This document shows, one piece after another, positions 2,724 to 63,600 of a stretch of DNA of 64,000 nt (its first letter is position 1; every line of letters starts with the position of its first letter). The notes beneath the pieces are model-generated. The model ran no database searches, was not told the DNA's origin, and saw only the letters and a list, made by a program, of their open reading frames with translations. This DNA is from Owenia fusiformis (lineage: Eukaryota; Annelida; Polychaeta; Sabellida; Oweniidae): positions 10,104,650 to 10,168,649 of the forward strand of contig CAIIXF020000002.1 of NCBI GenBank assembly GCA_903813345.2, read 5' to 3'. The position numbers and the translations under genes are program-made.

Positions 2724-2756
2724 TTATCAAACTTAACGGTGCATATAAAATACATT

Positions 2757-6802: not shown

Positions 6803-6827
6803 TTAATCGTCACAAAACATGCACATT

Positions 6828-11529: not shown

Positions 11530-11607
11530 ATGAATTCAATAACATCAAAACCATTCGTAAATGTTGTCACTACCGCAACAGATAGTGTTCTTAGCACGGT
11601 AATATAA
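11530..11607 (+). other. Upstream ORF from ancestral receptor start
   Basis: The ATG homologous to the starts of receptors 1 and 2 (MNS-T, then SVLSTV as in receptor 1) is preserved but ends after 25 codons at TAA (11605-11607). That stop overlaps the ATG of the remaining receptor frame as TAATG. Comparison with copy 1 shows the frame was lost by small deletions just after STV. Translation of receptor 3 now needs leaky scanning or reinitiation at the overlap. Confidence 0.7.
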
Positions 11608-16393: not shown

Positions 16394-16475
16394 ATGAGGT
16401 GTTTAATTTTAATCATCTCGGTTGGGCTAGTTTGTCTCAAAGCAGAAGTCAACAATTGGATGTACATTAAGGAAG
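16394..16475 (+). CDS. Receptor exon 1: signal peptide
   Basis: MRCLILIISVGLVCLKAEV is a classic signal peptide with cleavage expected after KA or AE. The context GACAATGA has A at -3. The donor used, AAG/GTCCGT, is weaker than GTAAGA four bases on, but only the former keeps the next exon open (phase 1). Confidence 0.7.
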
Positions 16476-19400
16476 GTCCGTAAGATTTATTGGATTTTAC
16501 GATAATAATTTGTTATTTATAAAAATCATTCTAACATAAAATTAAGGTGATTTAGACGTTGCAAATTATAAAAAAATAGAAAAAATAGAAAAATGTTTCA
16601 AAACTACTACATGATTTTATTATGGTATCAAACTTTTTATTTTATTAGGATCTTGAACAATGAGATTTCACCTAAATACCAATACGTCGTTAGGTATACA
16701 AATAATTCTGATTCTTGTTGATTAAACTACTTTACAGTTTGCCCACACTCCCTTGGTTATGTTAAGCCATTTACACAGGCACAGGGGCATTGGTGCAATG
16801 TGTTGGTCAACTTTAAAGCTCCCTGCATGGGTACGGTTGTAGCCTGGGAATACTACGCTATGTATAACCCCTCTGACCTTTCTGGATTCTTTAATCTCGT
16901 TGTTTTAACACCAATTGCTGGAACAACATCTTCATATACAGTCAGGTCAATTACCAGATTTCCAGAGAGTCCGCTAGGCTACAACGTGTATGTAAAGAAC
17001 ATAACGGTGAGTCATTATAACATATCATAATAACATTTAAACTGATGAGTATGTGCTTTTAAACGTGTGTTGGAAACATATATTGAAAATTGACAAAAAT
17101 AATCTACAATATGCAAATACAGGGTGAGCCAAAAAAGTTAATCCAAAAAAATCTTAATAACTCTGTCACTCAGGCTTTGTATAAAAAACCTCCTACCTCA
17201 TACCCACCTACCCACGTACGTGGGACATAATACAGTCCTTGAAGGGTTCAATTTTAAAAATTATTAAATCTTAGTTGATGTTGAATTTTAGATGAATTAA
17301 TGCACCCATATGCCTTTATCTATGGATCTGTCAACTGTCTAGTCATAAAATATAACCAGAATTGAAAAAATATTTAATGAGGAATTCTGAGGGAGGTACA
17401 GGTGACAAACCATTACTTCTTGGACGAGATACACATACATACAAGCAACTATATACAACAAAAAAACATTTCGAGAAATCAAAAGCAGACATGAAATCAA
17501 AATAGCTCAAATTATTAACATTTCTGCAATTCCGGCTTTATTTTATGACATGACCGATCCATAAATAAAGGCATATGGGTGCATTAATTCATCTATAATT
17601 CTTCATAAACTAAAATTCAATACTTTTTAAAATTGAACCCTTCAAGGACTGTATCATGTCCCACGTAATGTCATCCTACCAAGTTTCAGTGGTCATTCTA
17701 AATAGTTAAAATCTGGTGGGATTTATGTCTAGTCAGTGAGGCACATTTCGACATTTTGAGCATGTTTCGTAAATTACCATAAAATCGTGACTATTAGGGA
17801 TAAAAAATTACAGTTAGTAGAATGAAATAATATTGAACAAGGTTTAATTGTGCCAAATATGATTTGAAACCCATGCTGAATGACATACAGTAGTTATTTT
17901 CATACATTTGCTTGGGTTGCCTTTTTTGGCTTACCCTGTACCACAAAGGACTTCATAAGAATAAATTAACCGACAAACGTATGGGCGGGGGAGTAGTGGA
18001 AAATCATGGAATTTGACACCGAAATGTAAAAAAACAGTATTTTAACTGCTCAGTGTAGCTGTAGAGCAATGGCTTTATGTATTTTTCTGAAATAAAAAGT
18101 AAATGAATTTTTTATCTCAAAGATGATGGAAGGTGATGTAATTGGTTTTATGGCCGATTCGAACCAACCTTCCCAAATGGGGATTGCACAAGAGGTGCTA
18201 GGGGAACAGCCTACGTACGCAACCGACTTGTACTACGACTTTCAAGGGAGTGGTGAAATATTTGCAGATACTACATCTGTTGGTGATTCAGTTACATTGT
18301 CAGCAACTAATGTAAATGGGAGGGCCTACCCTATAAAAGCGCTGTATACATACAGTATGTTGCATCAATTGTACATGTACATGTATCTATCAAATATAAA
18401 TAGTTCAGATTATTAACAAAGGATTTTTTAATGAAATATTTCATCAAATAACTTATGCTCAACATTCCATTTGCCCTCCTACCCTCATTTTTTGATTTTT
18501 ACACCTGAAAGTCATTTATCTATTGCTCAAGCTCGAAAAATAAAGGAGGCAAAAAATCGAAGGGATGTAGATATAAAGCTGGCACATAATAAAGTATACA
18601 CTCCCCTCCATAAGTTTGGCAACCTTACCTCCCTATTGAAATTGAGAAAAATGGAGATATTGGAAATGAAGTCAAATAACATTTCCATCAATATTAAACG
18701 TATTTTCCTCGCAGGCTATTAACACGGCTTTATCACGTAGTTAAACGACGAAGCCAAGGTTGCCAAACTTATGGAGGGGAGTGTATTTCAGCCACAAAGT
18801 ACTTAGTATTTGGTCAAATCTTTTTCACGTGCAATTGTATTTTTTAAATTAACTTTAGGAGGATTGGCTACCAGGATCGACAGTCGATATTTTCAAACAA
18901 TGAAAACGTCAAAATGTCGTTATTTTCTGAAATTAATAACGACTATAAATTCAAAATAAACAGTCCAAAAGATTCGAACCAATATCTCGATCATTTCTTG
19001 TGAGTTTTAGAATTTTTTGTTTACGAATAAGACCAAAAATGCACGATTCAAATGTTGAAGTGAACAAAATGTCGGCTCAAATTTTGAATCACGACATTTC
19101 CATATATCGGACAGAATATCGATGTGAACTCTATGATCCAATCCTCCTTGAAAATAACTGGTTGACAAGAAAGTGACATAGAATCCCTTGCGATGTTATG
19201 TATAAAAACTAATTTTAAGTTTACACGACCACGTGTTATATTACAGAGTATATAAACATGGGTTGCTGGGCGGATACGGCGACAAGGGCCATGACATCTC
19301 TGGAAGGTGCAGCCGTACTTGATGGCGCTTATGGAGAACGACAGGACGCTATCAATAAATGCTTCATCGCAGCTAGAAACAAGGGCTATGAGTACTTTGC

Positions 19401-22400
19401 TCTGCAAGGGGGTTCTTGCTGGGGATCAGCATTTGGAGATGACACTTCTTATGCTCAGTACGGAGAAAGTGAATCTTGCGAGAAAAATGGAAAAGGAGGG
19501 ACATTGAAAAATAATGTGTATAGGATAACATTAGGTAAATGTATTTACGTTTTATATATAGTGCATAGCAGGCCCGTAGCCATGGGGCTGGGGAGCCAGA
19601 AAAAAGATGGGACCGGAAACTCATCCTCCCTCCCACATAACCAGAAATGCTTTCAAAATCATGCAGGTTTTTACCATTCTGAGCACTTTTTTGATGATGA
19701 CGATTTTTTAGCCAAAACCAAAAGCTCTCCATTTGGTAAACGCTAGAAACGAGCAAGCATATATATAGCGTTTGCAATAAGTCATAAAAACGTTTGAAGA
19801 ATGATGCAATTCAATTTATGAAAGAGGAAAACACGTTTGATATCCACAATTTGTATGAATTAAATATTTGTTTTGACTATAGAGTGTTGTTTGGAGTGAA
19901 TGTCAAGTAAAAAGCATGATATCCACAACTTGGCACGTGGCAAACCAATCTTAGAATATCAACTCGGAAATATATGATCGCACACCTTCAAAAATGAGAT
20001 GTGTAATTCACTTTTAAAATGATTTTTAAAGAATTGTGATTCGTTATTGCCTGACTCTAAAAAACTATATTTGAAGAAAGCTTATTCTAAATTCAATTCT
20101 CTGAAATCATATGAAATAGGAATATGAAATATCGCAATAATTATAGGATTATAATTTGAATGATTATAGGATATCGAAGTATAGGCAAGTGTTATAGGAC
20201 ACCACATAATGGACTAAATTCTCTGGAGGGTACAGATACCATCCTTGATGATAACCATACTCTGAGAGATGATGCTATTGGGTAATGTACATTTTTGTTT
20301 TTACATATTTCACAATAAAGGGAGTATATATATATAAACTCTGTTTTTCTTCAATGTTGTTCCTCAATTATATAACCTCATCTGTTTATGACGAATCTGT
20401 TCAAATCAGCCAAGCATGAATGGGCTTTAACCCCAATGTCTGGAACCTTTTTTAATAACACTAAGTCGCAAGTGTAGGGGGGTCATTTGAACCATGTAAC
20501 TGTCTATATTTTATGAATTTCATTTTAATTTGCAACTTTATTTTTAATTAGGAAATGTTATACCGTGTCACTGAACAATGGCTACAAATATTTCGGACTT
20601 GTGGATGGCGGGTTATGTTTCGCTGGGTCAACGTTCGATTATTCTGCAATTCCTTTGGATATAGCTGAATGTGGAGCAGAGGGAGACGGTGGACCGACGT
20701 CGTACATGATCTATGAAATTATGAATGGTACTTAACATGTTTTTTTGTTTTTCATAGATTTCACGTTCTTTTATTTGAGGCGGTTATCGTGTCGTGCCTT
20801 ACAGCATGTACAGGGCCTTTTGTGCCCAAAAGGCCCGTGTTTTGGCTCCATTTTTGTTCTGGGCCAATCCAAGAGGGAGCTGCCCCAAGAACCACCAGTG
20901 TTGAGGATTGATTTTTTATTTCCTCTTGTAGTGTGTTTTGTGCGTTTTTGATATCCAACATTGCATCATAAGTATCACCGCGCGATTGAAAATAGTTTGA
21001 ATTCCTAATTTCTTTGTATATACACCTATTTTGTATCATTGCCACTGAATATGTTATAGCAATCAGGAACACATGAACGTTTTTGAAAAACGCAGTCCGA
21101 AACTGAAAAAACATAACTTTTCCCGAATCGCAGTATACCAATAGAAGCCCCGTGACAGAAAATACATTTGAATTATTTAGTGAAATAAGTCTGTGAATAA
21201 TCAATGTCAATGCGTTTGGCATTTATCTCTGTAAGGATGCCATGTTGTCATCGATTCATCTCGTTGAAGGTTTTTAGGATTCATGAATTATTTCACGAGT
21301 TAGAGATTCGTGAATACACATTCATTTCCGCGATTCTTTAATTACGGAAAGCTATAGGGGACATGCGCATAATTCAAAATCGAATGGAGTTTTAACATGG
21401 GAGTGATATCACACACCGCGGCCCAGTCAGATAGATTTCATCGCGCACTGAATGAATTACAGGGGCCGCGTTTTGCAAAGTTAATTAAAATAAAGTGCGC
21501 AGAAATTCCGGCATTCAGTGCGCGATGAAAAAATGATTATCTGTGAATAAATAACGAATAAAAATTCGTAGCACCACGAATTTGATTTTTTTCGAAAGAC
21601 TGCGCAGTGAACCAGCGAAATGACAATTTTGGATAATATTGATGGCTCTAACGAGGAGAACTTTGAGATTTCCTGATTCTAGCGCGCAGCACATCCAGGA
21701 CCATGATGCGCACTTTTATCAGATTCGATTCTAATATGGTTTCAAAGATAATGTTCATTAAAAGAGGGCGTATGCATACAGATTACAAGTGGCGTTATGT
21801 TGAAGTGACCCTTGCACTTGGGTTCCATTGAAAATATATTATTTTGGGCCATTTCATATCTTTTAATTGATATTGTATAAAATATTTTCAATGTTTGAAA
21901 ATTATAATCTTATAAATAACATTTTATGTAATAAAACTGTAACAAAATGGTAAATACGGAATATGATGCAATACAATGCAGTGCAATATGATGTTATACA
22001 ATGCAGTGCAATATGATGCAATACAATGTGGTACAAAATGATGTAATACAATGCGGTGCAATATGATGCAATACAATGCAGAGCAATATGATGCAATACA
22101 ACGCAGTGCAATATGATGCAATACAATGTAGTGTAATATGATGCAATACAAAGCAGTGTTATCTGATGCAAAAAATGCAGTGCAATATGATACAATACAA
22201 TGTAGTGCAATATAATACAATAAAATGCAGTGCAATACGATGCAATGCAATACAGTGCAATATAATGCAATACAATGCAGTGCAATGCAATACAGTGCAA
22301 AACAATGCCGTGCAGTGCAATACAATGTAGTTCATTTCAATACAATGCACTGCAATACAATGTGGTACAGTGAAATACAATGCAGTGCAATACAATACAT

Positions 22401-52400: not shown

Positions 52401-55400
52401 AATAAATAAAACTAAATATTCGAGTTAAAATAAATTACAAATAATGCATTTAACAATCCTTAATATCTTCCCGTCTGTGTTTATCAGTTGAATATGACAA
52501 GGGGCATTGTGAAAGAGTCTAGAAAGACGGTGCGACAACGAGAGCGCAGGGCCGAAAAGCGCGACAAAGAAGAAAACGGGTAGGGTTTGAAATGTCTACT
52601 TTCTGGTTATTCTAATTCTGTATATCGTGACACAACCTTTTTGAATATAGAATTGTATTGAAGCGCACATTAATCTGAACAAAACTTGAAGTTTTTAAGA
52701 AAATTCCACGAATATTAAAACGTTTGCAATTACTTGGAGGAGCATTGCGCATATTTATCGCGTAAATCTTTGCATTTTGTCGGTAAAATGAACAATTACA
52801 CTGTTACGCCGTGATGTACAGTATCTGACGTCGTATCTATACCCTTGTTGTCATTTCGTTCAGTTAAATTTTATACCATAAACCTCGGCTGTCATTTCGT
52901 CCAGTGTACTTTTATATATTTATATAATCAATAGATTTCCATTCAGATAACACGGTTACATCAGTGAAGACCTGATGGTGAGGAGTATGAACCGTCAATA
53001 ATATAATAAATATCCTATTCTGTTTTCGGTAAATACCCCCGGACTCGGACTTCGGGAAACATAATTGCCTGTGAAAGATATACAGCTGGGACATAGCTAG
53101 TCACTTCAATAGAACGAAATATTTGTATATCATTTCATGCCGGGTTTAAAGTGGCAACAAATAATAGAGTGTGTGAAATGTTGCAAGCAGACTTCTAAAA
53201 GCATACAGATATTTCCCTCCTTTGTGTTACAGATTATTTTATTTGAAAAAAAGTAGAGGGAATACAAGGGGTGATCAATAAGTAACGGACGCAGGAGATC
53301 TTGTTTATTTTGTATTTTCAGGACTATATGTAACCAATAGTAACAAACGGAAAACAGTCTTTATTTTCTATCTTTATTGCATATTAAAATAAAAAAAACT
53401 GTAACATACACAAATAAAAAGAGTTACAATTCAGATGTATGACTTTCAAAAATGACAAGATTGTATGAATAAATGAAATACATGTCTTTAGAAAAATATG
53501 TTAACTGTACACTGTTATAGACTGGTAGTGACATCTTTCATGTCTTTTACACACCTAGCTAAATCGTAATACATATATGGTCATCTCACACTATATAGCA
53601 CCAAACATGTCAAACAGATCCTAGCTTACAAAACCTACCCAGACACTTCTGTAGACCACGGGGCTGATAGAACATCTATAGAACAGCTGGTCCTTAACAA
53701 CACTAGAATGAAATAAATGAGTTCAAAATAAGTCTTACAGACATTCTTAAATCATGTAAACCTCACAGAGTCAATGCAAATTGAAGGTGATCTTTCCAAA
53801 AAGAAATGACAAAAACTATAAAATCCTAAGAAATCTCACATGTTTCAAGAAATGTTAAAGTACACGCAATCTAATCTATTTTGCACAACGTTGAGTTTGA
53901 TATATAATAAATGCAACCGTACTTGACTTAACTAAGGGTCTTTCTACCTAAACCTAGGTTTAATGATGTAAAAACGAGTCAATTTCTACAAGAAATTCAG
54001 AAAAGCAAATTTGAGAACATGCCGTTTTTCCAAGATGGCCGACTTCCACTTTCTTTTCGGACCAGAGATAACTGTTATTGTAGACAGTTATATAATTGAA
54101 CATGAGTAGGTTCAGAATATATTCATGTTATATAAATTACCTTGATATTTTAGCATATGATACAATAGTCAGTCTCAAACACAACATTTACACAAGTGAG
54201 TCGACATCTGCAGCAGAGAAAATACCATGCACTGGTATCATCGACACACCAATAGAGGGCAATATGTTCTATATATTCAAATGTGGGTCAAGGTCAACGC
54301 AGCACAAGATTGTGGAAATTGAACTCATGCCGGGCTTCTTAGGAGAAACTGTTGATGTTTGCGATATTGCTATATATAGAAAGGAATTGGGTAAGATTTG
54401 AAGTGTATTTAATTTAGGGAGAATGTTTGCTAAATCTTAGCACTCTTCAAACTAGTTTCCGTTTCGGTAACAAAATGTCGGAATCTCGGGGGTACGTTTT
54501 TTCTTATTTCACGAATTGTACGCAGAATTTCCACGATGTTTTTATTACAAATGTTTGTCAGTATTATGTGACAAGAGTGAGATTTTATATCGATGATTGT
54601 ATATTTTGAAATATTTGTTCGCAGACGTCTAGATTTTCTTAAACATATGATACTGACCACACACGTCGTGAAAATTCTGCTTACAACTCGTGAAATAAAG
54701 AAAAAAAATAGTACCTTGAAGGAGGTTCAGTCATTTTGTTACAGAACGGATCCGTTTCGGTAACTTGTTTAAAGAGTGCAGAACCAATGTAAATATCGTT
54801 TAAGACAATTTGTTTGATTGTTGCATTCTCAGTTGGAAATTAGTTTGTAATGAGAAAGTGTTATGATGGTGTGTGTAAAGCGATCTTTTGAAAATTCATG
54901 CTAGTCTTATCCTTACAAGTAACAGTACTAATTTCTTTTAAATCAGAATGCCTGACCAAATTTATGGAAGATTTAGGATGAAAAAATGTCCAAATTCTTT
55001 AGAATTGAGAAGGGGACACCCACTTTTACTTTTTGGTCAGATAACCTTACATATCTGGGGATTATTTTGAAATAAAGTCAGAACTATTGGACCTTTTACA
55101 AAACAGACTTTGAATTAACGTGTAAAGTGTACACCTGGTATTTAAATATTTAGGTTGTCCCCCGGAGACTGAATCTATCGAAAATGGGCGTGCATCTACG
55201 ACATTTGCGAACAGGCAACCAATGGGTACAATCATTGAATATGAATGTGATACTGGTTATGAGACCAACAGTTCAGTCATCATCTGTCAGAAAAATGGAA
55301 CATGGAGTGAAGCTAACTGCACAAATGTATCTTGTGATATGGCCCCGCAAGAATTACAAGGAGGGACCCTTGAGGAGAAATGCATTGGAACCAATGGATA

Positions 55401-58400
55401 TTACAAGGACAACTGCACGTATTCTTGCAACATAGGATACACCATGAATGGCTCAAATGTGATACAATGTATGGAAGATAGGAACTGGACTGCCATCCCT
55501 GAATGTATTATAAAAGATTGTGGTGAGCCTGGCTCAGTTGAAAAAGGAACCTTAAGATATAATTCAACTGTTTTCAATTCAACTGCCACTGTTAATTGTG
55601 ACATCGGACACGAGTTATCATCCGAGAGTAATATGGATGGTATTATCAGATGTAATGCATCTGGATTATGGGATGGGTATCCCATTGGATGCAGCATAAA
55701 GGATTGTGGCAAACCTGAATCAGCTCAAAATGGAGATTTTTCATATAATTCAACTGTCTTCAATTCCACTGCCACAGTTGACTGTGACATCGGACACGAG
55801 TTGTCATCCGAGAGTAATATGGATGGTATTATCAGATGTAATGAATCCGGATTATGGGATGGGTATCCCATTGGATGCAGCATGAAGGATTGTGGCAAAC
55901 CTGAACCAGTTGAAAGTGGAGATCTTTCATATAATTCAACTGTCTTCAATTCCACTGCCACAGTTAATTGTGACATTGGATATGAATTATCATTGGAGAG
56001 TAATGTGGATGGAATTATCAGATGTAATGAATCCGGATCATGGGATGGATACCCTATTGGATGCTCCTTAAAGGATTGTGACACACCTGAATCAGCTCAA
56101 AATGGAGATTTTTCATATAATTCAACTGTTTTCAATTCCACTGCTATTATATCCTGTGACATCGGACACGAGTTGTCATCAGAGAGTAATATGGATGGTA
56201 TTATCAGATGTAATGAATCCGGATTATGGGATGGGTATCCCATTGGATGCAGCATAAAGGATTGTGGCAAACCTGAACCAGTTGAGAGTGGAGATTTTTC
56301 ATATAATTCAACTGTCTTCAATTCCACTGCCAAAGTTAATTGTGACATCGGATATGAGTTATCGTCAGAGAGTAATGAGGAAGGAATGATCAGATGTAAT
56401 GAATCCGGGTTGTGGGATGGGTATCCTATTGGATGTACCAAAAAGGATTGTGGCAAACCTGGATTAGTTGAAAGGGGAAATTTTACGTATAATTCAACTG
56501 TTTTTAATTCCACTGCTATTATATCCTGTGACATTGGATATGAGTTATCGTTGGAGAGTAATGCGGAAGGGATTATAAGATGTAATGAATCTGGGTTGTG
56601 GGATGGGTTTCCTATTGAGTGCATTATTAAAGATTGCGGCGAAGCACCATTGATTACAAATGGCGCTGGTGATGGTTTAGGCACCACATATGAAGAAACG
56701 TGGCATTACGTATGCGATCCTGGATTTGATCTTATTGGAGAAAAGAACATCACGTGTCTTGAAACTGCAACATGGACAGATGCACCTAATTGTACAATAA
56801 AGAATTGTAGCTTCATTCCTATTTGGCAAAATGGACATGTAGTTGCATCTGATGGTCTGACATACGGTAGCACAATTGATTTTCTATGCGACCATGGGTA
56901 CACACATGAAGGTGAAACTCGCATAGAATGTTTGGAGACTGGTCTTTGGTCAGAATTAGGTGAATGCAAACGTGTGTATTGTGCACCACATCCAACAATC
57001 AACCATGCTTTTATCTTGCACATTACTGATGATAATGGCTCTGAAAAACTAGATGAATATATCGGTTCAGGGATTTTTAATGCAACCGTTGACACAATGA
57101 TAGAATACAGATGTGATCTTGGATACAACATGTCTGGTAATTCAACAATAACATGCCTTCAATCAGGAAACTGGACATCTCCAGCAGAGTGTAATATTGT
57201 CCAATGTGGACCACCTGATGACATCATCAATAGCACAGTCCAATATAACCAAACCTTTTACAACAGCACTACGGTATATGATTGTGCTGTCGGAAATATC
57301 CTGATAGGTGATAATACTTCGAGGTGCCTTGAAGATTCTACCTGGACAAGCCCACCATTCTGTTTGTTCATAGACTGCCATGACCCACCATATGTATCTC
57401 ACAGTACAACTGGGTACACTGACAACAGAACAACAGTTTATGCCAAAGTAGACTATGAATGTGATATAGGATACGACATGGTAGGAAACAGTACAGCTTC
57501 CTGTAGTGTTACTGGAAATTGGAGTGACATACCTGTTTGTGTCATTGCAGACTGTGGGGAACCTCCAAATGTCCCTTTCTCAACATGGGACCAAAACACC
57601 ACAACCACCTACGATAGTGTGCTGACATACACATGCTTCGAAGGGTATAAAATGATTCAAATGGAACCAAATACTTCGAGTTATGCCTCATGTTCTGCAA
57701 ATGGCTGTTATGATGATACTATCGCATGTTCTAAAAACATGAGTTGTGATAATGGGCTATCGGCTAATAGTTCATTCCAATGTCCAACAAACAGAAGCTG
57801 TTATGAGTTTTTTGATAGAGCTAGTACAGTTCGCTGCCTACCGATTGGGAATTGGAACACTACACCAGTATGTGAACCCAAGGACTGTGGCTTGCTGAAT
57901 ATAAGCAATGGCAGCATGGTATACTTTGATAACTCCACAACATATGGCTCGAATGTTAGCATGTCGTGTGACGAAGCATACTATCTCAATGGAGACTCGA
58001 CATTACAATGCAATGCTGATGGACAATGGTCAAATATAAGTGAATGTGTGGCAATAGATTGTTTCAACATCCCATCTGTCGACAACAGTGTATTTCTAAA
58101 TCCATCAAACAACACCTTGTATGGGAGTGTGGTGAATTATACATGTGATATTGGGTATTTCATGACTGGCAATGACTCCATAACCTGTATGAACAATGGG
58201 TCCTGGTCATCCCCTCCAGAATGTACAATTCATGATTGCGGAGAAATGCCTAATATAAGTAATGGTATAGGAAGATTAACACATAAAACCCTCTTGAATA
58301 TGACCACAGTCAACAATACACATCTTGACACATTAAATAAAACAATTACACAGATGCCTCATATACATGATATAACTAAAGCCGCACTTATTGATGCGCT

Positions 58401-60068
58401 TAATGGTTCGATGGATCCCCGAATTGCTATGGAAAATACTACACACGGGCCTAATATGACTATCACTGAATTCCAGAATGATGACGATGTAAATGCAAAC
58501 AAGACAACGTCTAATGATACAAACGTTGATGGTTCCATGATGAATAACGATACCGATATACGCAATGTTTCGAATGTACATTTGATAACATCAAATGATG
58601 TAAGGCATAACCCGGGAGAGACGTTATATAGTACAACGTATCTTTCTATGGGAGAGTACACCTGCGATGATGGCTTCAATATGTACGGGGATCCAAAGAC
58701 CATCTGTTTGGCTGACGGAACCTGGTCACAAGCTCCAGTTTGCAGTCTTTATGACTGTGGTGACCTGCCAGTAGTTCACAACGCTAATGTAGCTGTTAAT
58801 CTCGACAGCACGAACGATAAGATTATAGCCACCTTTACATGTGTAACTGGTTACTTTCTCGTTGGGAATGAGTCGATCGAATGTGAAGCTGGTTCCTCGT
58901 GGACTACTGACACCCCTAAATGTGAGATTGTGAATTGCGGAATGCCACGAAAAGTTGCCAGAGCAGTACGGGAGGTTACAGATATTACATATGGAAGCAT
59001 GGTGAAGTATACTTGCGAGAAAGGAAATATTTTACATGGTAGTTCAACAGCTGAATGCAAGGAAGATGGTTCTTGGAGTCCTTATCCAGAATGTTCCTTA
59101 GTGGATTGCGGGCCTTTACCTAGAGTTCAAAATGCAATAGGTCATTTAAGAGGTACCACGACAACCTATGGGAGAAGCGCATACTACACATGTGCATGGG
59201 GTCATAGGGCTTATGGTGATACAAATATACATTGTCAAGCAGATGGCCTATGGTCCTTTCCTTGTGTTTGTAGTCCTCTAGATTGTGGAGACATCCCTTT
59301 AGTGTTGAATTCCAGTGCAGCAGTAAGGCTATCACAGAGCATTGCTCTGCAAATTAACTACCAGTGCGATCCGGGATATAAACTAATTGGTCACCCACAG
59401 GTTACATGTATGCAAATTGAAGAGTGGTCGGCAATTCCAAGTTGTAATTTAATTACTACCACACCATTGCCTACCTCTCCAGCCACTACCACAACTTCAA
59501 CAACGCAATCGACCACTGCATTACAATCAACCTTGTTTGATACTTCGACCAAACAATCCACGACTGCTGTCCGTACAACACCACTGGCTACAACAGAATT
59601 GTATACAACGCCTTATATTGTTGCCACTGAGCCTCCTAAGGCGGTTTACAAGAGGGTGAAAAAGATGGAGATCCCTCCAGAGGAAGCGAAGCATGCTCAG
59701 GTATAGCAACAGACCGTGTAATAAATTAAACGGAAGGTTATACAAATTTAATTAAAAGTATATCTTATTATTTGTCAAGGGTGACCACATATATCATTAA
59801 TTCTTGCGATTTGAAAAATAACTATGGATTCTCTTAAATCCAAAAGTCACCCATTGTATTGGTATAACATTTGATTCACTATACTATGTTGTGTATGTTA
59901 TTTCAGGTCGTAAGTATGCCTGTAGCTGTATTTCCTGCTATATTCCTCGGAGTTTTATTACTCACAGATCTACCAAAGATTATTGTAGATTGCAGACAAG
60001 GATTTAGAAACATGATGCACGGACTTCGGCAGTATATTAAATCAAGAAACAGAATTGCAACTGTGTGA
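16394..60068 (+). CDS. Giant lectin/discoidin/sushi type I membrane receptor (22 exons)
   Basis: Predicted cell-surface protein of about 3008 residues. Domain order (rough residues): signal peptide 1-18; beta-rich GDVIG-motif domain 28-194; WSC-like domains 195-290 and 291-386; F-type lectin first half 387-454; PAN/apple 455-541; F-lectin second half 542-615; sushi 616-673; LamG-like 674-886; SUEL-like lectin 887-999; F-lectin-like first half 1000-1054; discoidin 1055-1202 and 1203-1360; F-lectin-like second half 1361-1439; 21 sushi 1440 to about 2850; Thr/Ser stalk; membrane segment and tail 2956-3008. Support: every splice phase agrees across 21 junctions, the exon sum is 9027 bases (3 x 3009), and no in-frame stop was met. 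Split domains are rejoined correctly by the model. Such domains bind sugars or proteins, so adhesion, recognition or complement-like roles are reasonable, but none is shown. The region could instead be several genes or isoforms; consistent phase argues against that. Confidence 0.75.
16738..17006 (+). CDS. Receptor exon 2: beta-rich domain, first half
   Basis: Acceptor TTTACAG, donor ACG/GTGAGT, phase 1 in and phase 0 out. It encodes VCPHSLGYVKPF, then W-C-N-V-L-V-N-F, GTVVAWEYYA and a series of alternating hydrophobic strands ending VYVKNIT. I know this G-x-V-x-x-W-x-Y-Y pattern only as an unnamed beta-sandwich-like region in secreted invertebrate proteins; no function is assigned. Confidence 0.7.
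17120..17938. mobile_element. Mariner-like MITE, CAGGGTGAGCCAAAAA ends
   Basis: It starts CAGGGTGAGCCAAAAAAG and ends with the complement of CAGGGTAAGCCAAAAAAGG, flanked on both sides by TA, the target duplication typical of Tc1/mariner elements. Inside, two arms near 17215-17335 and 17545-17665 are inverted copies (for example GCATATGGGTGCATTAATTC). It lies in intron 2. The right end matches the right end of the 7.4-kb element at 43800-51243. Confidence 0.85.
18123..18354 (+). CDS. Receptor exon 3: beta-rich domain, second half
   Basis: Begins MMEGDVIGFMADS at phase 0; the GDVIG turn completes the exon 2 domain. It ends ALYTY at donor CA/GTATGT, phase 1. The acceptor is ATCTCAAAG. No intervening stop. 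Confidence 0.7.
18599..18783. mobile_element. MITE with CACTCCCCTCCATAAG ends, short copy
   Basis: 185 bp flanked by TA. The ends are inverted copies of CACTCCCCTCCATAAGTTTG plus GCAACCTT. The interior shares a GAAATGAAGTCAA and TTCCATCAATATT block with the larger relative at 47413-50836. It lies in intron 3. Confidence 0.85.
18855..19148. mobile_element. MITE with AGGAGGATTGGCT ends, copy 1
   Basis: About 290 bp, from AGGAGGATTGGCTACCAGGA to ATCCAATCCTCCTTG. It aligns along its length with 24627-24918 (GATTGGCTCCCAGGATCGA to AGCCAATCCTTGGAAG). A more diverged relative of the inner part, including the AAAATGGCGGCTG and CACGACATGCC blocks, lies at about 32250-32460. All are in introns of the receptor gene. 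Confidence 0.75.
19247..19534 (+). CDS. Receptor exon 4: WSC-like domain 1
   Basis: Encodes YINMGCWADTATRAMTSLEG through AINKCFIAARNKGYEYFALQ, then GGSCWGSAF, YGESESCE and VYRITL. The cysteine and Gly-Tyr-x-Tyr-Phe pattern matches the WSC-like modules common in secreted marine-invertebrate proteins. Phase 1 at both ends, so a mobile single-exon module. Confidence 0.75.
19580..19745. repeat. Dispersed repeat, inverted copy at 23690-23850
   Basis: Read on the opposite strand, this block matches 23690-23850 (AAAAAATCRT, AAGTGCT-AGAATGGT, CTGCATGATTTT and a purine-rich end near GGCTACGG-CCATG). It follows exon 4 within intron 4 and has no protein resemblance. Confidence 0.6.
20170..20281 (+). 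CDS. Receptor exon 5: WSC-like domain 2, first part
   Basis: Begins YRSIGKCYRTPHNGLNSLEG and ends LRDDAI, with donor GG/GTAATG, phase 1 in and phase 2 out. It aligns with the first half of exon 4, but here the module is split by an intron. The acceptor AG at 20168-20169 is supported by the phase match rather than by a strong pyrimidine tract. Confidence 0.65.
20552..20727 (+). CDS. Receptor exon 6: WSC-like domain 2, second part
   Basis: Begins KCYTVSLNNGYKYFGLVDGG, then LCFAGSTFDY and AECGAEGDGG, ending YMIYEIMN at donor G/GTACTT, phase 1. It aligns with KCFIAARNKGYEYFAL of exon 4. The acceptor is TTTTTAATTAG. Confidence 0.75.
21341..24460. mobile_element. Inverted-repeat element enclosing pentamer satellite
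   Basis: About 100 bp at 21341-21439 is the inverted copy of 24361-24460 (ATGGAGTTTTAACATGGGAG, TGATATCACACACCGCGG and CCCAGTCAGAT are shared). A further inner pair is GTAGCACCACGAATT near 21570 and its complement near 24130. The intervening 2.5 kb is mostly satellite. The whole is in intron 6, which is 4.7 kb long. Confidence 0.65.
21959..23470. repeat. Pentamer satellite (AATAC/AATGC/AGTGC), 1.5 kb
   Basis: An array of five-base units, chiefly AATAC, AATGC and AGTGC in shifting order, with occasional ATCGC or AGTTC units (CATCGCAGTTCAA blocks near 22390, 22465 and later). Because three pentamers make five codons and the common units lack stop triplets in several frames, long spurious open frames appear on both strands. 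None is a gene. Direction changes little along the array. Confidence 0.95.
24627..24918. mobile_element. MITE with GGAGGATTGGCT ends, copy 2
   Basis: Aligned with 18855-19148 over its whole length in the same orientation; ends CCAAGGAGGATTGGCTCCCA and GGGAGCCAATCCTTGG form inverted termini. It sits in intron 6 downstream of the satellite element. Confidence 0.75.
25416..25619 (+). CDS. Receptor exon 7: F-type lectin, first half
   Basis: Begins DNVALGKTTSQSS, then ASERAILTTSDGTCIASLTN, PYWRLDLG and ISKLVIHPVI. NVALGK-x-T-x-Q-S-S and W-R-x-D-L-G are hallmarks of the fucolectin/F-type lectin fold. The exon stops where family members continue into the R-x-D-C-C-x-x-R sugar-contact loop. Donor ATAG/GTAAGT, phase 1 on both sides. 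Confidence 0.85.
26202..26269 (-). mobile_element. SINE-like tRNA-related unit, copy 1
   Basis: On the minus strand it reads TAGGCGATTGGGTGCCGTAA, CCACGAGG, then GAGTTCGAGACGCGGTG, a plausible degenerate pair of RNA polymerase III A and B boxes like those of tRNA-derived SINEs. A second copy follows at 26540-26609. A cloverleaf cannot be closed convincingly, so it is not a tRNA gene. Confidence 0.5.
26540..26609 (-). mobile_element. SINE-like tRNA-related unit, copy 2
   Basis: Almost identical to 26202-26269 and in the same orientation; here the minus strand reads ACGAGGTTGCGAGTTCGAG, closer to a B box. The two units are about 340 bp apart inside the foldback core. Confidence 0.5.
28138..28398 (+). 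CDS. Receptor exon 8: PAN/apple domain
   Basis: Encodes about 87 residues with six cysteines: TSCIPGNN, FEQCKVICLNSLNCLSFDFQ, RRCQISGKHS and EPCHL, then YKYYEYFKP. The C-x3-C-x5-C-x-S-F core is that of PAN/apple modules. Phase 1 at both ends, so it can be skipped or included without changing frame; it sits between the two halves of an F-type lectin domain. Confidence 0.8.
28648..28869 (+). CDS. Receptor exon 9: F-type lectin, second half
   Basis: DLNNFGIYIGQDSINID, VCFEQTS, then VRCYTDLRGRYVMIQKND and LGICQVEVYVE. C-x5-GRYV-x-I followed by L-x-x-C-x-V-E-V-Y is the standard C-terminal half of F-type lectins, which pairs with exon 7. Phase 1 both ends; donor TAT/GTAAGT. Confidence 0.85.
29576..29749 (+). 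CDS. Receptor exon 10: sushi/CCP domain
   Basis: Single-exon 58-residue sushi domain: YCSEVSVNPH, GDVAIFECLPGNNM, YRVTCLANGEWSDSSLVC. Four cysteines and the invariant Trp before the last Cys are present. Phase 1 both ends. The acceptor CTTCTCCAG is strong. Confidence 0.85.
29928..30445. repeat. Tandem repeat, four units of about 130 bp
   Basis: Units share GAGAAGTTGTAGATGAT, GGTCAATTTGAAGCAAGTTG, AAAAATAC-TTGAC and TGAAGGTCAAATC. Spacing varies from about 115 to 140 bp. It fills most of intron 10. The ACCTTGA/TCAAGGT-type words make it partly self-complementary. Confidence 0.85.
30539..31177 (+). CDS. Receptor exon 11: LamG-like (concanavalin-fold) domain
   Basis: One 213-residue exon. After GCCDLTKNN, a run of beta strands includes SIFTNSSIVHSN, ISLEIWMDLDLMLGYTVITS, FGLTFRNGTVAATF, VYVVLTKT, FDLYMNAILVAH and HHFYMDSD, the usual layout of LamG/pentraxin-like jellyroll domains. 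It lacks an obvious metal-binding signature. Phase 1 both ends. Identification is by fold pattern rather than by a diagnostic motif. Confidence 0.65.
31528..31866 (+). CDS. Receptor exon 12: SUEL-like lectin domain
   Basis: Cysteine spacing and the end ACTDKSYCNISYSEYSNMRE, then SCPQEEKVTVIARFDC, match the C-terminal part of SUEL/galactose-binding lectin domains (C-x3-C-x-I ... CP-x3-K-x-x-V-x-x-x-Y/F-x-C). The N-terminal part (VGCETEDMRFVTACPSGSVW) keeps the early C-P-G signature. Phase 1 both ends, donor GG/GTAAGA. Confidence 0.7.
32110..32480. repeat. Diverged relative of GGAGGATTGGCT MITE
   Basis: The inner blocks AAAATGGC, TGATCACTTCCTGTGTGTTTT and AAAAAATGGCGGCTGGTTGA followed by CACGACATGCC align with the middle of 24627-24918, but the terminal inverted repeats are not recognisable. 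Confidence 0.45.
32856..32990. repeat. Foldback, ATAGGATATCCTATGATTTT family
   Basis: GATATCCTATGATTTTCTCG and its inverted form ending AAATCATAGGATATCC flank a centre with CTCGGCGCTCACTCGG. A partial copy overlaps the end of exon 13 (33327-33365) and another lies near 33440. Confidence 0.6.
33143..33307 (+). CDS. Receptor exon 13: F-lectin-like domain, first half
   Basis: ESAELEVVEENEITDADPFA, TCITLGPSLTKQSLQLKIG, then IGDIIVNIGVKYG. ITDAD-x4-TC-x-T-L and the L-x-L-x-I-G strand correspond to the DG-x-x-T-C and WRLDLG region of exon 7. Donor ATG/GTGATA, phase 1; a second phase-1 donor at 33370 would add 21 residues, but that stretch overlaps a repeat. The matching second half is exon 20, after two discoidin domains. 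Confidence 0.6.
33902..33975. repeat. Palindrome, GCGGGCAGATATA
   Basis: GCGGGCAGATATAG occurs twice, and the complement TATATCTGCCCGC follows within 60 bases, giving an inverted repeat. It lies in intron 13. Confidence 0.6.
34266..34410. mobile_element. Hairpin MITE, GGTTCAGGATATTGGGAT arms
   Basis: The arms GGTTCAGGATATTGGGATTA and their complement pair across about 137 bp, with an inner palindrome CCCTCGGGACCTACGGCCCT. The outer words AGGATAATC and GATCATCCTATAG also pair. It ends about 50 bp before exon 14. A related palindromic block with GGTAGAT and CTACC arms runs from about 34610 to 34710 and through 34990 in intron 14. Confidence 0.75.
34462..34567 (+). CDS. Receptor exon 14: discoidin domain 1, first part
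   Basis: GEPSHLVHDVQDHQLTASSS, then YSAAHDPNFSRLNT. L-x-D-x-Q-L-x-A-S-S-S and the R-L-N turn are typical of F5/8 type C starts. Phase 1 in, phase 2 out, donor AAG/GTAGGC. Confidence 0.8.
35259..35466 (+). CDS. Receptor exon 15: discoidin domain 1, middle
   Basis: GQCGCWAAAVNDQNQWIQVD, then FETVVHVSGVITQGRSDYSQ and WVTSYTVSHS. The N-D-x-N-Q-W-I-Q-V-D and V-x-G-V-x-T-Q-G-R signatures are diagnostic of F5/8 type C domains. Phase 2 in, phase 0 out. Confidence 0.9.
35698..35827 (+). CDS. Receptor exon 16: discoidin domain 1, last part
   Basis: VFTGNIDQNSTVAHQFGPEF, NARIVRIHPREYYVHMSMRF and DILG complete the domain. The acceptor TTTTAAAG/GTA was chosen because it starts exactly at the conserved V-F-x-G-N-x-D; an alternative AG at about 35674 would insert 8 extra residues in frame. 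Phase 1 out. Confidence 0.85.
35968..36104. mobile_element. MITE with GATTCATCGG inverted ends, copy 2
   Basis: Arms TCGATTCATCGGTCGGCGCC and GGCGCCGGGCAATGAATCGG are inverted copies and continue through CGATTGAGTATT. It corresponds to 10225-10347. The outer flanks GGTCTGGCTCACATTT and AAATGAGACC also pair. The right end stops 21 bases before exon 17. Confidence 0.8.
36125..36254 (+). CDS. Receptor exon 17: discoidin domain 2, first part
   Basis: GDKLPEMELIDAMNVPDDHF, SVSSTHSHSTPLGARARLNY, DDPG. It aligns with exon 14 in position and phase (1 in, 2 out), including the A-R-L-N turn. Confidence 0.85.
36385..36583 (+). CDS. Receptor exon 18: discoidin domain 2, middle
   Basis: GCRSWCAGSNDANQYIEVDL, GRAVFVSGIVTQGRHDYDQW, VKSYKLKYKAAEVEPFVGYT. 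The W-C-A-x-x-N-D and V-T-Q-G-R signatures are intact. Donor AAG/GTACAG, phase 0, followed by a 14.7-kb intron. Confidence 0.9.
36991..41393. repeat. Giant foldback with minisatellite centre, 4.4 kb
   Basis: 36991-38395 and about 39990-41393 are near-identical inverted arms. Each arm contains two diverged direct units of about 380 bp (starting TACCTTGG near 37167 and 37549, both with GACGTCATCAATC and TTTTTGGTTCAGAAT). Both arms also hold the same 62-codon frame (38197-38385 plus, 40009-40227 minus) reading SEDDSSYGLCNISNISDAMV. The centre is a minisatellite that itself inverts near 38880. Its cruciform or hairpin potential is extreme. Confidence 0.9.
38455..39930. repeat. Minisatellite, GCCCCCAGAAGCTATACGATG units
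   Basis: Units of about 21-29 bp built on CCCCCAGAAGCTATA run in plus orientation to about 38882, then in inverted orientation (TATAGCTTCTGGGGGCC) to 39930. It generates spurious repetitive frames (MAPRSYT-type) on both strands. The inversion point lies at GGCCCATTGGGGG near 38880, well left of centre. Confidence 0.95.
41869..42415 (-). pseudogene. Decayed Tc1/mariner-type DDE transposase
   Basis: Minus-strand fragments in the right order for a transposase C-terminal half: IFTQDGAATEYFRRLYSQF ends near 42224, and SPDLNCCDFFFWSYLRS lies near 41990-42050. QDGA(P)xH-like and SPDLN-x-x-D-F-F-x-W-x-Y-L-(K/R)-S are the catalytic-region motifs of the IS630/Tc1/mariner superfamily. The pieces are in different frames with stops between them, so the gene is dead. 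Its orientation fits the right-hand terminal repeat as the promoter end. Confidence 0.8.
43480..43690. repeat. Palindromic tandem repeat, CACCTGCGGTATATG
   Basis: CACCTGCGGTATATGKCATA and its complement recur seven or so times in both orientations between 43487 and 43680. Single related units (TATGCGATA, ACTTGCGGTGTATGGCATA) occur from about 43120. It lies between the two large elements of intron 18. Confidence 0.8.
44019..44112. repeat. Hairpin, TCTGTATTGCTACTGAGATT arms
   Basis: TCTGTATTGCTACTGAGATT with GTCC pairs with GGACAATCTCAGTAGCAATA and CAGA. An internal palindrome ACCAATCTGTATT/AATACAGAAAATATTGGT surrounds the loop. Confidence 0.75.
44133..44270. repeat. Hairpin, TTATTGAATGATTTG arms
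   Basis: TTATTGAATGATTTGAAGTT, CAATACAGGATATATTCTG and their complement CAGAATATATCCTGTATTG, CACTACAAATCATTCAATAA enclose a second pair ATATTCTGTATTGG/CCAATACGGAATTT. The arms match over nearly 40 bases. Confidence 0.8.
45858..45935. repeat. GTCCGTCC / GTTGGTCCGTCC simple repeat
   Basis: Tetramer-derived array GTCCGTCCGTCC interspersed with three GTTGGTCCGTCC units. It is followed at 46145-46260 by a looser run of CCAGGTC/AAGGTC words. No gene. Confidence 0.9.
48244..50780. mobile_element. Foldback transposon, GGGTGGTCCAAAATATGGCG ends
   Basis: Ends GGGTGGTCCAAAATATGGCG and its exact complement, TA on both sides. The arms are long and built from tandem units of about 190-200 bp (GGAACCCATACATCAAAT, GAGACCCAAATCCCATGGGA, AATTTACCCACG, TTTTCCTGGTAT, GACTCTTTATTACTTCATAA): about five units on the left (48290-49130) and about three to four inverted on the right (50095-50710). 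A non-repeated core of about 950 bp lies between. Confidence 0.85.
49546..49746 (+). pseudogene. Exon-like fragment in transposon core
   Basis: After an acceptor-like TTCTTTCAG the frame encodes GMNIFREMTKLSGSSNPLKI, then WYRLTGYNREQAIDTLINQK, ending LISPKKIRFDI and a stop. It reads like the terminal exon of a real protein, yet it sits in the core of the foldback element. I do not recognise the family. It may be a captured host fragment or a remnant of the element's own gene. A minus-strand frame overlaps it (49408-49797). Confidence 0.3.
51323..51467 (+). CDS. Receptor exon 19: discoidin domain 2, last part
   Basis: IFNANTDRDTIVQSTLKIGG, VFARYIRIHPVTWANHISMR and MGILGYPYG complete the second discoidin domain begun 14.7 kb upstream. 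F-A-R-Y-I-R-I-H-P-x-x-W is the diagnostic end of F5/8 type C. The acceptor TTTTGATTTCAG is strong and phase 0 matches exon 18. Donor G/GTACAG, phase 1 out. Confidence 0.9.
51504..52841. mobile_element. TIR element, ATACGACGTCAGATACTGTAC ends (1.3 kb)
   Basis: ACGACGTCAGATACTGTACA near 51508 and its complement near 52835 are inverted copies over about 33 bp, extending to TCGCGGC/GCCGTGA. It lies in intron 19. A small basic frame inside (52495-52581, MTRGIVKESRKTVRQRERRA) is flanked by splice-like signals, but its phase does not fit the receptor gene. Confidence 0.6.
53270..54030. other. Intron 19 remainder
   Basis: A sequence GGGGTGATCAATAAGTAACG near 53270 resembles a mariner terminal repeat, but no matching opposite end is seen. 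Otherwise AT-rich without recognisable content. Confidence 0.3.
54154..54390 (+). CDS. Receptor exon 20: F-lectin-like domain, second half
   Basis: AYDTIVSLKHNIYTSESTSA, EKIPCTGIIDTPIEGNMFYI, FKCGSRSTQHKIVEIELMPG and TVDVCDIAIYRKEL. The three cysteines and the ending V-D-V-C-D-I-A-I-Y correspond to exon 9 (ICQVEVY), so this is the C-terminal half of an F-lectin-like fold whose first half is exon 13. Phase 1 both ends. Donor TGG/GTAAGA. Confidence 0.75.
55154..59700 (+). CDS. Receptor exon 21: 21 sushi/CCP domains and stalk
   Basis: One 4547-bp exon with 21 consecutive sushi domains (four Cys, W before the last Cys, usually linked by a CG-x-P start). Domains 3-8 are near-identical 62-residue copies. 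Domain 14 carries an inserted segment with extra cysteines. Domain 17 has an Asn/Thr-rich insertion of about 115 residues between its first two cysteines. Dozens of N-x-(S/T) sites predict heavy glycosylation. After the last domain comes a Thr/Ser/Pro stalk (TTTPLPTSPATTTTSTTQST onward), then VYKRVKKMEIPPEEAKHAQ. Sushi arrays occur in complement regulators and adhesion proteins. The donor CAG/GTATAG contains an in-frame stop, so reading through ends the protein one residue later. Confidence 0.9.
55519..56634 (+). repeat. Six tandem 186-bp sushi-coding repeats
   Basis: Six units of exactly 62 codons, each with CG-P or CD-P start, YNSTVFNSTA, CDIG-ELS-ESN and IIRCN-SG-WDG-PI-C. Units 1-5 are most alike; unit 6 has more changes at its ends. 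The length is constant (1116 bp), as expected from recent unequal exchange. Confidence 0.95.
59907..60068 (+). CDS. Receptor exon 22: membrane segment and short tail
   Basis: VVSMPVAVFPAIFLGVLLL is a membrane-spanning segment followed by TDLPKIIVDCRQGFRNMMHG, LRQYIKSRNRIATV and TGA. The tail of about 35 residues is basic and has no recognisable signalling motif; C after the membrane could be acylated. Acceptor TTATTTCAG, phase 0. Exon 22 is joined to exon 21 by phase and by the need for an anchor; it could be a separate isoform end. Confidence 0.7.
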   Translation, partial: VVSMPVAVFPAIFLGVLLLTDLPKIIVDCRQGFRNMMHGLRQYIKSRNRIATV

Positions 60069-62250: not shown

Positions 62251-62499
62251 TTTGTTTCATTGTTTTTGGGGTATAATTAAGCGATATCCTCCCCTAACCC
62301 CAATATACTGTATGTACCTTAGTGTACCAAGCATTTGCAAATTCTTAAGTACGGATACTATCCCTAGATATTGCCCGCAATGTATGGCTTGTTACCCAGT
62401 GAAGCCGCTAAAAGTCGTTCATATTTCTTTTCATTAGAATCATATTCACTTCCGGTTTGTTGTTGAACGTAATATTTTATGCAATCGGGGTGTCAACAT

Positions 62500-63175
62500 T
62501 GATCAACATTGATAAAGATCAAAATTTGTCACTAAATCAAAACAATTGGAAGAAGATAAATATACTTAACAAACTGAGTAACTTTGAACCTAAGTTATCA
62601 TCTTTCACTTACAAAGTCCTTCATGGATTTTTAGCAACTGATACATACTTAAAAATGTGTGGACTCATAGAGTCAAACATTTGCACTTTTTGTAAAGCAA
62701 ATCCTGAAACAATTTGCCATCTTCTGTATGAATGTACTATTGTGAGTGCCTTATTAAATGACAAATTTAAATAGCTCCCTTTAAAGCTCACAGTGTTATG
62801 TACTAAACAAAATGTATTGATAGGACCTGAGTGTATTAATGAAAAACCGATCATCCTAAATAGTATGCTATGTATTTTTAAAAGGTATGTTTATTTGTGC
62901 AAATATTCTATGCTAAAACCAACACTTAAAGGTTTTATAAGTAATGTGAAGGATTATTTTATTATGGACAAACGAGTTGGCAGATGTGATAAGTGGAAAA
63001 ATCGTGGAAGCAAAATTAAACAAATGACACTGATTTTTCCTTTAAATAAAAAAAATTGCCAAAGGTATAAAATTATTAAACACTAACGTGTAACCAATAC
63101 TGTATTGTAAAATGTACTTTTAACATGTAACTGTATTGTAATTGTTTTTTCTTCTCTGAAATAAAATAAATAAAA
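62500..63175 (+). mobile_element. 5'-truncated LINE 3' end with zf-RVT relic
   Basis: A continuous frame (62457-63086) broken only by one TAG (62772-62774) encodes the C-terminal part of a non-LTR reverse transcriptase protein: WKKINILNKLSNFEPKLSSF, then ICTFCKANPETICHLLYEC, the C-x-x-C ... H-x4-C zinc-binding end typical of these proteins, and a trailing region YVYLCKYSMLKPTLKGFISN. It finishes with an A-rich tail AAATAAAATAAATAAAATG near 63162-63180. The catalytic domain is missing, so it is a dead 5'-truncated insertion. Confidence 0.8.
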
Positions 63176-63289: not shown

Positions 63290-63600
63290 GCAAAAACCGC
63301 TTTTACAAACTGGCTTCTTACGTACTACAGAAGCCGGCTTCTGGAGTCACCAAGAAGCCGGCTTTCAAAAGCCGGCTTCTGAAGGACAACAGAAGCCGGC
63401 TTCTGGAGTCACCAAGAAGCCGGCTTTTACAAACTGGCTTCTTACGTACTACAGAAGCCGGCTTCTACAGTCAACAAGAAGCCGGCTTTTAAAAACCGGC
63501 TTCTGAAGGACAACAGAAGCCGGCTTCTGGAGTCACCAAGAAGCCGGCTTTTAAAACTGGCTTCTTACTTACTGACGTACTGCAGAAGATGGCTTTTGAA
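63290..63600. repeat. Palindromic AAGCCGGCTT tandem repeat
   Basis: About six half-units containing AGAAGCCGGCTTCT or AAGAAGCCGGCTTTT joined by GGAGTCACC, GAAGGACAAC or TACAAACTGGCTTCTTACGT. The higher-order period is about 130 bp. GCCGGC is self-complementary, so every unit can form a cruciform. Confidence 0.9.

Follow-up and report, generated by a model that had tools for sequence, protein, structure and literature searches.

An array of exons in the annelid Owenia fusiformis raises two questions: do these exons make up a single gene, and if so, how are so many recognition modules fitted into one protein chain? The window, i.e. the whole 64,000-nucleotide stretch that was analysed, is C2:10104650-10168649 of a 498-Mb assembly in which the labels C1 to C11 denote contigs. 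With splice sites placed by hand, the gene comprises 22 exons on the plus strand, running from an ATG at window position 16394 to a TGA that ends at 60068, and all 21 junctions are GT/AG with matching phase, an agreement that chance comes nowhere near explaining. The exons, their order, the 21 phase joins, a signal peptide and a membrane segment had been proposed by a sequence-only reading, and all of them were found; the lengths given there, 9027 bases and about 3008 residues, are replaced here by 9,048 nt with the stop codon and 3,015 aa, a discrepancy that must come from exon edges, which that reading did not list. Hydropathy is the basis for calling the signal peptide, from an N-terminal peak of 1.94, and the membrane segment, from a maximum of 2.49 at residues 2963-2981. 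The protein contains 81 N-glycosylation sequons. We think it probable that this one gene encodes a giant type I single-pass mosaic lectin receptor in which domains are nested within other domains.

A second copy of the gene speaks to the first question. With the big sushi exon as the query, a second intact copy was located on the same contig, 21 Mb away (C2 ~31.3797-31.4181 Mb), and 60 kb of this copy (plus strand) were aligned to the window, keeping rows longer than 60 nt and above 70% identity. Of the 43 rows obtained, 22 are collinear blocks with 71-89% DNA identity that correspond to the exons of the earlier reading; the others are repeats within the sushi exon or non-collinear matches, and the non-collinear matches of other window stretches to this region are taken as repeats. 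The paralogue has an intact 9,018-nt frame (3,005 aa), the same 22 exons and phases, and one stop, at the end. Over 2,992 aligned codons the two proteins are 76.5% identical, with Ka 0.132, Ks 0.429 and Ka/Ks 0.31, and the differences fall 390/372/721 on the first, second and third codon positions. The same exons and phases in a second copy, combined with this Ka/Ks, therefore indicate one gene under purifying selection. Among single exons, Ka/Ks is highest in exon 14 (1.89, a noisy value from 35 codons), followed by the signal peptide of exon 1 (0.72); it is 0.32 in exon 8 and 0.17-0.45 in exons 15-19, and the lowest value, 0.07, belongs to exon 22 with the membrane span and tail. Could this be a decaying gene whose frame has stayed open by chance since a duplication? 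Beside the paralogue there is indeed a broken third copy of the sushi and tail exons (C2:31424091-31427533), with two TAA codons in the sushi exon and one stop in the tail exon, but decay is extremely improbable given that the other two copies are both intact, with 3,015 and 3,005 codons, and that Ka/Ks is 0.31 at a Ks of 0.43.

The paralogue was also used in settling exon edges. A donor for exon 11 at 31216 was rejected as it breaks the frame of the paralogue, and the donor at 31177 is matched there. The donor of exon 9 is ambiguous by 6 nt (GTATAT or GTAAGT, with equal phase), and the paralogue donor aligns to the first. Conserved blocks 1, 13, 17 and 18 start well upstream of the modelled exons, and for blocks 13, 17 and 18 the acceptors were set at an AG common to both copies.

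Could the model have merged a lectin-discoidin gene with a separate sushi gene downstream of it? The 14,739-nt intron between exons 18 and 19, with long repeat arrays inside, would be the natural place for such a boundary, but in the paralogue this intron is only 1,574 nt long, and it splits a discoidin domain. The intron between exons 8 and 9 has the opposite disposition, 249 nt in the window versus 8,777 nt in the paralogue, and every intron is 2,142 nt or shorter in at least one of the two copies; long introns that are differently placed in the two copies argue against two adjoining genes. Additionally, the junction of exons 20 and 21 is phase-matched in both copies, and in two related loci, C9a and C1, the exon-20 domain is likewise close, within ~1.3 kb, to the stalk and the membrane segment. 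A merger of two genes is thus highly unlikely, and the earlier proposal of a single membrane receptor is supported by the intact paralogue, the phases and the intron lengths.

What does this receptor contain? Exon 1 (16394-16475) carries the start codon and the signal peptide, which is conserved in the paralogue and visible in the hydropathy profile. The two halves of an N-terminal domain follow in exons 2 (16738-17006) and 3 (18123-18354); no Pfam family scores over its cut-off here, and no PDB family could be assigned. A PDB profile search with this domain gave 39 local matches, the best of which covers 38 positions of an antibody heavy chain (E 5.9e-4); they were taken as chance because they are short stretches of unrelated proteins. 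The domain recurs in the genome at C11 13.35-13.63, 22.46-22.48 and 23.29 Mb, at C3:30.4856 Mb and at C1:16.146 Mb, and a PAN domain comes after it at the one C11 locus looked at. Two WSC domains come next, the first, WSC-like by its likeness to exon 6, in exon 4 (19220-19534) and the second in exons 5 (20170-20281, first part) and 6 (20552-20727, second part). Pfam detects WSC in two stretches by a narrow margin (28.9 bits, cut-off 27.8), the best at residues 327-385, in exon 6, and the other presumably in exon 4. A gene at C6:26.526 Mb has the exon-4 WSC twice and exons 5 and 6 once each, at 53-76% identity; elsewhere in the 30 kb fetched there, no further exons of the window gene were found.

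The middle of the protein holds both of the split domains. Exons 7 (25416-25619) and 9 (28648-28863) encode the N- and C-terminal halves of an F-type lectin, and between them exon 8 (28138-28398) encodes a PAN domain. A single sushi domain occupies exon 10 (29576-29749; Pfam 21.0 bits, cut-off 20.7). The 213 residues of exon 11 (30539-31177) are possibly LamG/ConA-like, an unproven assignment: Pfam matches LamG weakly and in the paralogue only (E 0.059, below cut-off), and the structure predicted from seven sequences has a mean pLDDT of 36. Exon 12 (31528-31866) may be called SUEL-like, given eight cysteines invariant across eight family members and weak matches to the SUEL model by six of those eight (best E 0.0027), the window copy not among them. 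Against the Pfam cut-off of 31.4 bits, exon 12 of neither the window nor the paralogue has a match, a genome scan with the SUEL model at E 0.001 did not list this exon, and its predicted structure (eight sequences), with a mean pLDDT of 42, was set aside, as was that of exon 11. The two halves of what we call domain X, in exons 13 (33143-33307) and 20 (54154-54390), then enclose two discoidin domains, each in three parts, the first in exons 14 (34462-34567), 15 (35259-35466) and 16 (35698-35827), and the second in exons 17 (36125-36254), 18 (36385-36583) and, after the 14.7-kb intron, 19 (51323-51467). Pfam recognises both as F5/8C, well over the cut-off (159.9 bits, E 4.2e-47, two stretches).

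The C-terminal side is dominated by exon 21 (55154-59700; 4,547 nt), with at least 21 sushi domains, a Ser/Thr-rich stalk and the juxtamembrane part of the membrane anchor; exon 22 (59907-60068) supplies the membrane segment, a cytoplasmic tail of ~30 residues and the stop. Pfam finds sushi in 21 stretches of exon 21 (E 7.2e-150) and in 20 of the paralogue. About six near-identical 186-nt sushi units lie in tandem within this exon (window 55557-56617, 5.7 copies), and the paralogue's own set, more uniform by eye, suggests local repeat turnover. The Pfam family crAss_CARG1 also scores over its cut-off in exon 21 (37.4 versus 27 bits); no single stretch passes and the paralogue has no match, and we take this score as a by-product of the repeats. 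From the domain list of the sequence-only reading, discoidin, F-type lectin, PAN and sushi (exon 10 and the 21 stretches of exon 21) were recovered, SUEL has weak support and LamG is unproven; the two WSC domains, the nesting, the N-terminal domain and the common anchor had been missed. Its claim of at least four lectin-type folds holds in part, for the two discoidin domains, by Pfam, and for the F-type lectin by descent, albeit with no fucose motif.

The evidence that the F-type lectin is one domain split in two comes from rejoining it. Joined, exons 7 and 9 align end to end with the F-type lectin Sm-hPAF (E 3.8e-6, residues 1-138); the interrupted protein aligns to an F-type lectin at E 0.0064 and over the N half only. 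With the Pfam model F5_F8_type_C_2, the joined exons score 27.0 bits (cut-off 27.8), exon 7 alone scores 14.0 bits and exon 9 alone gives no match. When a joined profile of five members was searched against the PDB, all five sequences at E <=10 were F-type lectins, the best at 2.5e-12. On these sequence comparisons, exons 7 and 9 are certainly an F-type lectin by descent. The domain is not uninterrupted, however: in the window and in the paralogue the 261-nt PAN exon, of phase 1-1, stands between the halves. Exon 8 is a PAN domain, a kind that the earlier reading had listed, and on its own it scores 23.9 bits with PAN_1 against a cut-off of 21.4 (29.9 in the paralogue; 18.1, below cut-off, with a longer query).

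The place of the insertion bears on the function of the lectin. In the profile alignment, the insertion point falls on the RGDCC loop of FBP32 and of 1k12, which we take to be eel agglutinin (PDB listing: LECTIN). It is partly in this loop that F-type lectins carry their fucose motif, HX24RXDX4(R/K) (PMC5712786), and the motif was not found in the loop of any of the five aligned members, the window gene included. A loosened version of the motif matched one member, C9a, in which the R-x-D sits in an earlier strand, outside the loop.

How do relatives encode the same domain? In all three relatives with both lectin halves (C9a, C1 and C9e), there is no PAN between the halves, which have nothing between them but a phase-1 intron, 123, 316 and 469 nt long, respectively; within the stretches fetched, no F-type lectin was found in the relatives C9b, C9c and C9d. 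On C3, all five other F-type lectin N-half exons examined have a candidate phase-1 donor GT in the same loop, and R-x-D is still present in two of the five; these donors are read from sequence only, with the C halves mostly not located. The phase-1 introns of the relatives and the loop donors on C3 thus place the PAN exon in a seemingly existing intron. The intron of sea bass MsaFBP32 is at a different place in the lectin domain (PMC5712786), so the loop intron need not be ancient. The best other match to the PAN exon is at C9:36.52 Mb with 38% identity, and no donor gene was identified.

The second split has the same form. In the two C2 genes, an insert of 918 nt, again of phase 1-1, places two discoidin domains between the halves of domain X. 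Aligned with hhalign to the domain of five relatives, exons 13 and 20 of the two C2 genes give P 1e-6 over 113 columns, exon 13 alone gives P 2.3e-4 and exon 20 alone P 3.7e-4, and in each case none of 100 column shuffles scored as high; the joined profile scores 41.6 versus 21.1 and 24.2 for the single halves. No discoidin lies between the halves in any of the five relatives with both (C9a, C1, C9b, C9d and C9e), and the flanking sites are of phase 1. The halves in C9d have an array of exon-13 repeats between them, and in C9c no homologue of exon 20 was found within the stretch fetched. These two loci carry the exon-13 homologue in tandem approximately every 111 nt, with at least 26 matches in C9c (C9:11623393-11626422, to the end of the stretch) and nine in C9d (C9:21273-22271); the repeat contains a splice-donor-like sequence, and one matched unit per array has a stop. 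The arrays may be intronic or may represent an expansion of coding sequence.

Is nesting needed to account for these observations, or might exons 7 and 9 and exons 13 and 20 be independent small domains, strung like beads with the PAN domain between exons 7 and 9? In the window copy, Pfam matches neither exons 13 and 20 joined nor exon 20 by itself, and the PDB offers nothing credible for domain X, as would suit a string of separate small domains. Against this reading, exons 7 and 9 align to the first and second halves of the same F-type lectin structures, relatives encode the lectin halves with only an intron between them, and the joined profile of domain X outscores each half. We therefore consider independent domains improbable and read both pairs of exons as domains that have been split.

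Which fold domain X belongs to is a separate matter. Its C half resembles the F-type lectin (P 2.9e-4, a score that none of 100 shuffles reached; P 0.23 and 0.19 in crossed controls), and it is from the C half only that domain X may be called F-type-lectin-like. Its N half is not supported as a lectin N half (P 0.13, a score equalled by 10 of 100 shuffles). Comparing the lectin profile with domain X of the C2 pair gives P 0.052, which 3 of 100 shuffles reach, and swapping the halves does not lower the score (25.9 versus 25.1). Of seven members of domain X, one has a weak match to a galactose-binding Pfam model (E 0.031); the PDB profile search brought up no relative, its one match (E 0.13) being taken as chance.

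The source of the inserted discoidins was also considered. Five of six relatives have a discoidin upstream, ahead of the lone sushi (in C1 its first part only), and in the stretch fetched for C9d no discoidin was found. An unrooted tree puts the four C2 discoidins in one group (support 0.894) and those of five relatives outside it. The genome holds at least 145 discoidin-like matches, and that the C2 discoidins are the relatives' discoidin moved over was not established, as the relatives, of which the best reaches 61 bits, are outscored by some matches on C3 (92 bits) and C7 (77 bits).

How might such a protein have come about? We envisage that phase-1 introns already lay within the two domains and that phase 1-1 modules, the PAN domain and the discoidin pair, would have landed in them by intron recombination. 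The N and C termini of PAN and discoidin domains are neighbouring, which would suit both for plugging of this kind. If the tree is rooted between the C2 pair and the other genes, one gain and one loss of the inserts fit equally, and the sole polariser is that, to our knowledge, F-type lectins are uninterrupted as a general rule. PMC2926785 attributes less than 10% of high-confidence animal domain gains to exon insertion in existing introns.

Functionally, a PAN domain where the fucose-binding loop should be suggests that the lectin fold is now probably a scaffold; binding would be done by the inserted and neighbouring modules, held off the cell by the sushi array and the stalk. The short tail has no signalling motif recognised by eye, so recognition or adhesion would be expected rather than direct signalling. 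Surface recognition or adhesion, with the glycocalyx, a microbe or a gamete as the partner, is a role that we judge from the sequence to stand about evenly between right and wrong.

Both inserts are multiples of three (261 and 918 nt) with phase 1-1, so skipping them would keep the frame and give uninterrupted domains, and exon skipping is a possible splice switch between plugged and uninterrupted domains. Taken further, exon 8 and exons 14-19 might be cassettes that the default mRNA skips and that are included only in some tissues. Symmetric phase follows from insertion alone, however, and the inserts are conserved in both copies; from this conservation we infer that exon 8 and exons 14-19 are probably part of the mRNA, and that default skipping is unlikely.

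In alpha-I-domain integrins, a binding domain inserted in a loop of another fold takes over ligand binding. The likeness to the window gene is that of an inserted binding domain in the loop of a host fold; the integrin host, unlike that of the window gene, is a beta-propeller, and the folds are unrelated. A second comparison is with the mosaic F-type lectins with sushi domains, i.e. Drosophila furrowed and CG9095 and sea urchin SpCRL. The sections of PMC5712786 on these lectins describe their domains as joined in one chain and mention no nesting there, and CG9095 has lost two basic-triad residues of the fucose site. These proteins have in common with the window gene the F-type lectin and sushi and, for the Drosophila proteins, a predicted membrane domain; in the window gene, unlike these, the lectin is split by PAN, and WSC, SUEL-like and discoidin domains and another anchor are present. 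Oyster bindin F-lectin genes resemble the window gene in having an intron in the middle of each F-type lectin domain as a place of recombination (PMC5712786); bindin recombines the same kind of domain, whereas the window gene has foreign modules at the intron. Within the genome itself, C9a, C1 and C9e have in common with the window gene the anchor and the F-type lectin, discoidin, sushi, SUEL-like, exon-11 and exon-13/20 modules. In contrast to the window gene, their lectin is without PAN, and their one discoidin stands between lectin and sushi instead of in domain X; the last ectodomain exon has three sushi domains in C9a and none in C1 (C9e was not scanned). A weak WSC-like stretch was seen by BLAST in these relatives, and Pfam reports no family in that of C9a. 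In the paper collection searched, we found no paper that pairs the F-type lectin with a PAN domain or with domain insertion. Two insertions within folded domains, together with insert-free relatives of the same genome that have phase-matched introns, amount to a clean natural experiment in how a new binding module plugs into an old binding loop.

The membrane anchor extends the question beyond this gene. The anchor module consists of the juxtamembrane part at the end of exon 21 plus the membrane span and tail of exon 22. As a query, the last exon gave 35 genome matches at E <=1, itself included; in all 20 matches fetched, which were chosen for matching, the module lies in an open frame that spans 91-421 codons of the stretch fetched, and in 16 of the 20 a long Ser/Thr-rich stretch, judged by eye, precedes it. 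An alignment of 22 sequences (18 of the 20 fetched, the two C2 genes, C9a and C1) defines the anchor family used here, with Y2, K6 and E14 invariant before the span and D40 and D47 after it. The resulting motif, Y-x-(R/P/A)-x-K in the juxtamembrane part, a Glu before the span, the span and two Asp, is present in the window gene. Across the family the juxtamembrane part reads Y-x-x-x-K ... E-A-K, and the tail D-x-x-K ... D. The anchor consensus matched the genome 56 times at E 0.01, a count that takes in the window gene, its paralogue and the broken third copy, and a reversed consensus, the control, matched 0 times. Many of the 56 lie beneath Ser/Thr-rich or sushi ectodomains. No credible family for the anchor emerged from Pfam (11 families, none with more than two of the 22 members matching and none better than E 0.015), from NCBIfam, a bacterial and archaeal library (two families, by one member, E 0.083 or worse), or from a PDB profile search, which gave no match.

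How often does the anchor accompany sushi arrays? Eleven other loci have sushi open frames of at least 500 codons, and at seven of these the anchor is matched on the strand of the frame, either within it or no more than ~1.9 kb past the last sushi match: C4:12.83, C5:2.90, C11:3.79, C2:10.55, C10:19.23, C10:21.26 and C10:32.40 Mb, those at C11:3.79 and C2:10.55 Mb only at E 0.008 and 0.009. The other four (C1:21.97 and C11:3.725, 3.749 and 3.763 Mb) have none. Some of the sushi frames in the genome are giant and uninterrupted, with 2,766 aa at C1:21.97 Mb, 1,978 at C4:12.82, 1,526 at C10:32.40, 1,442 at C10:21.25, 1,378 at C10:19.23, 1,216 at C5:2.90 and 1,127 at C2:10.55 Mb. We offer as a tentative proposal, and with more doubt than belief, that the anchor marks an undescribed family of ~50 mosaic receptors, that ectodomain shuffling plugs phase-1 modules into its members, and that splicing of the window gene switches between open and plugged forms. 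If this is true, a common C-terminal anchor would define a receptor repertoire whose ectodomains diversify via modules plugged into lectin binding loops. The anchor provides a handle for collecting the whole repertoire; no profile library searched recognises it.

The remainder of the window holds long tandem-repeat arrays at 21960-23459, 38466-39923 and 63299-63573, and a reverse-transcriptase zinc-finger fragment (Pfam zf-RVT) at 62412-62768. Just upstream of the receptor gene are three tandem rhodopsin-like GPCR genes on the plus strand (2754-3962, 6807-8060 and 11595-12770), each a single open frame that matches Pfam 7tm_1 over its full length at E 1.5e-37 to 4.8e-37.
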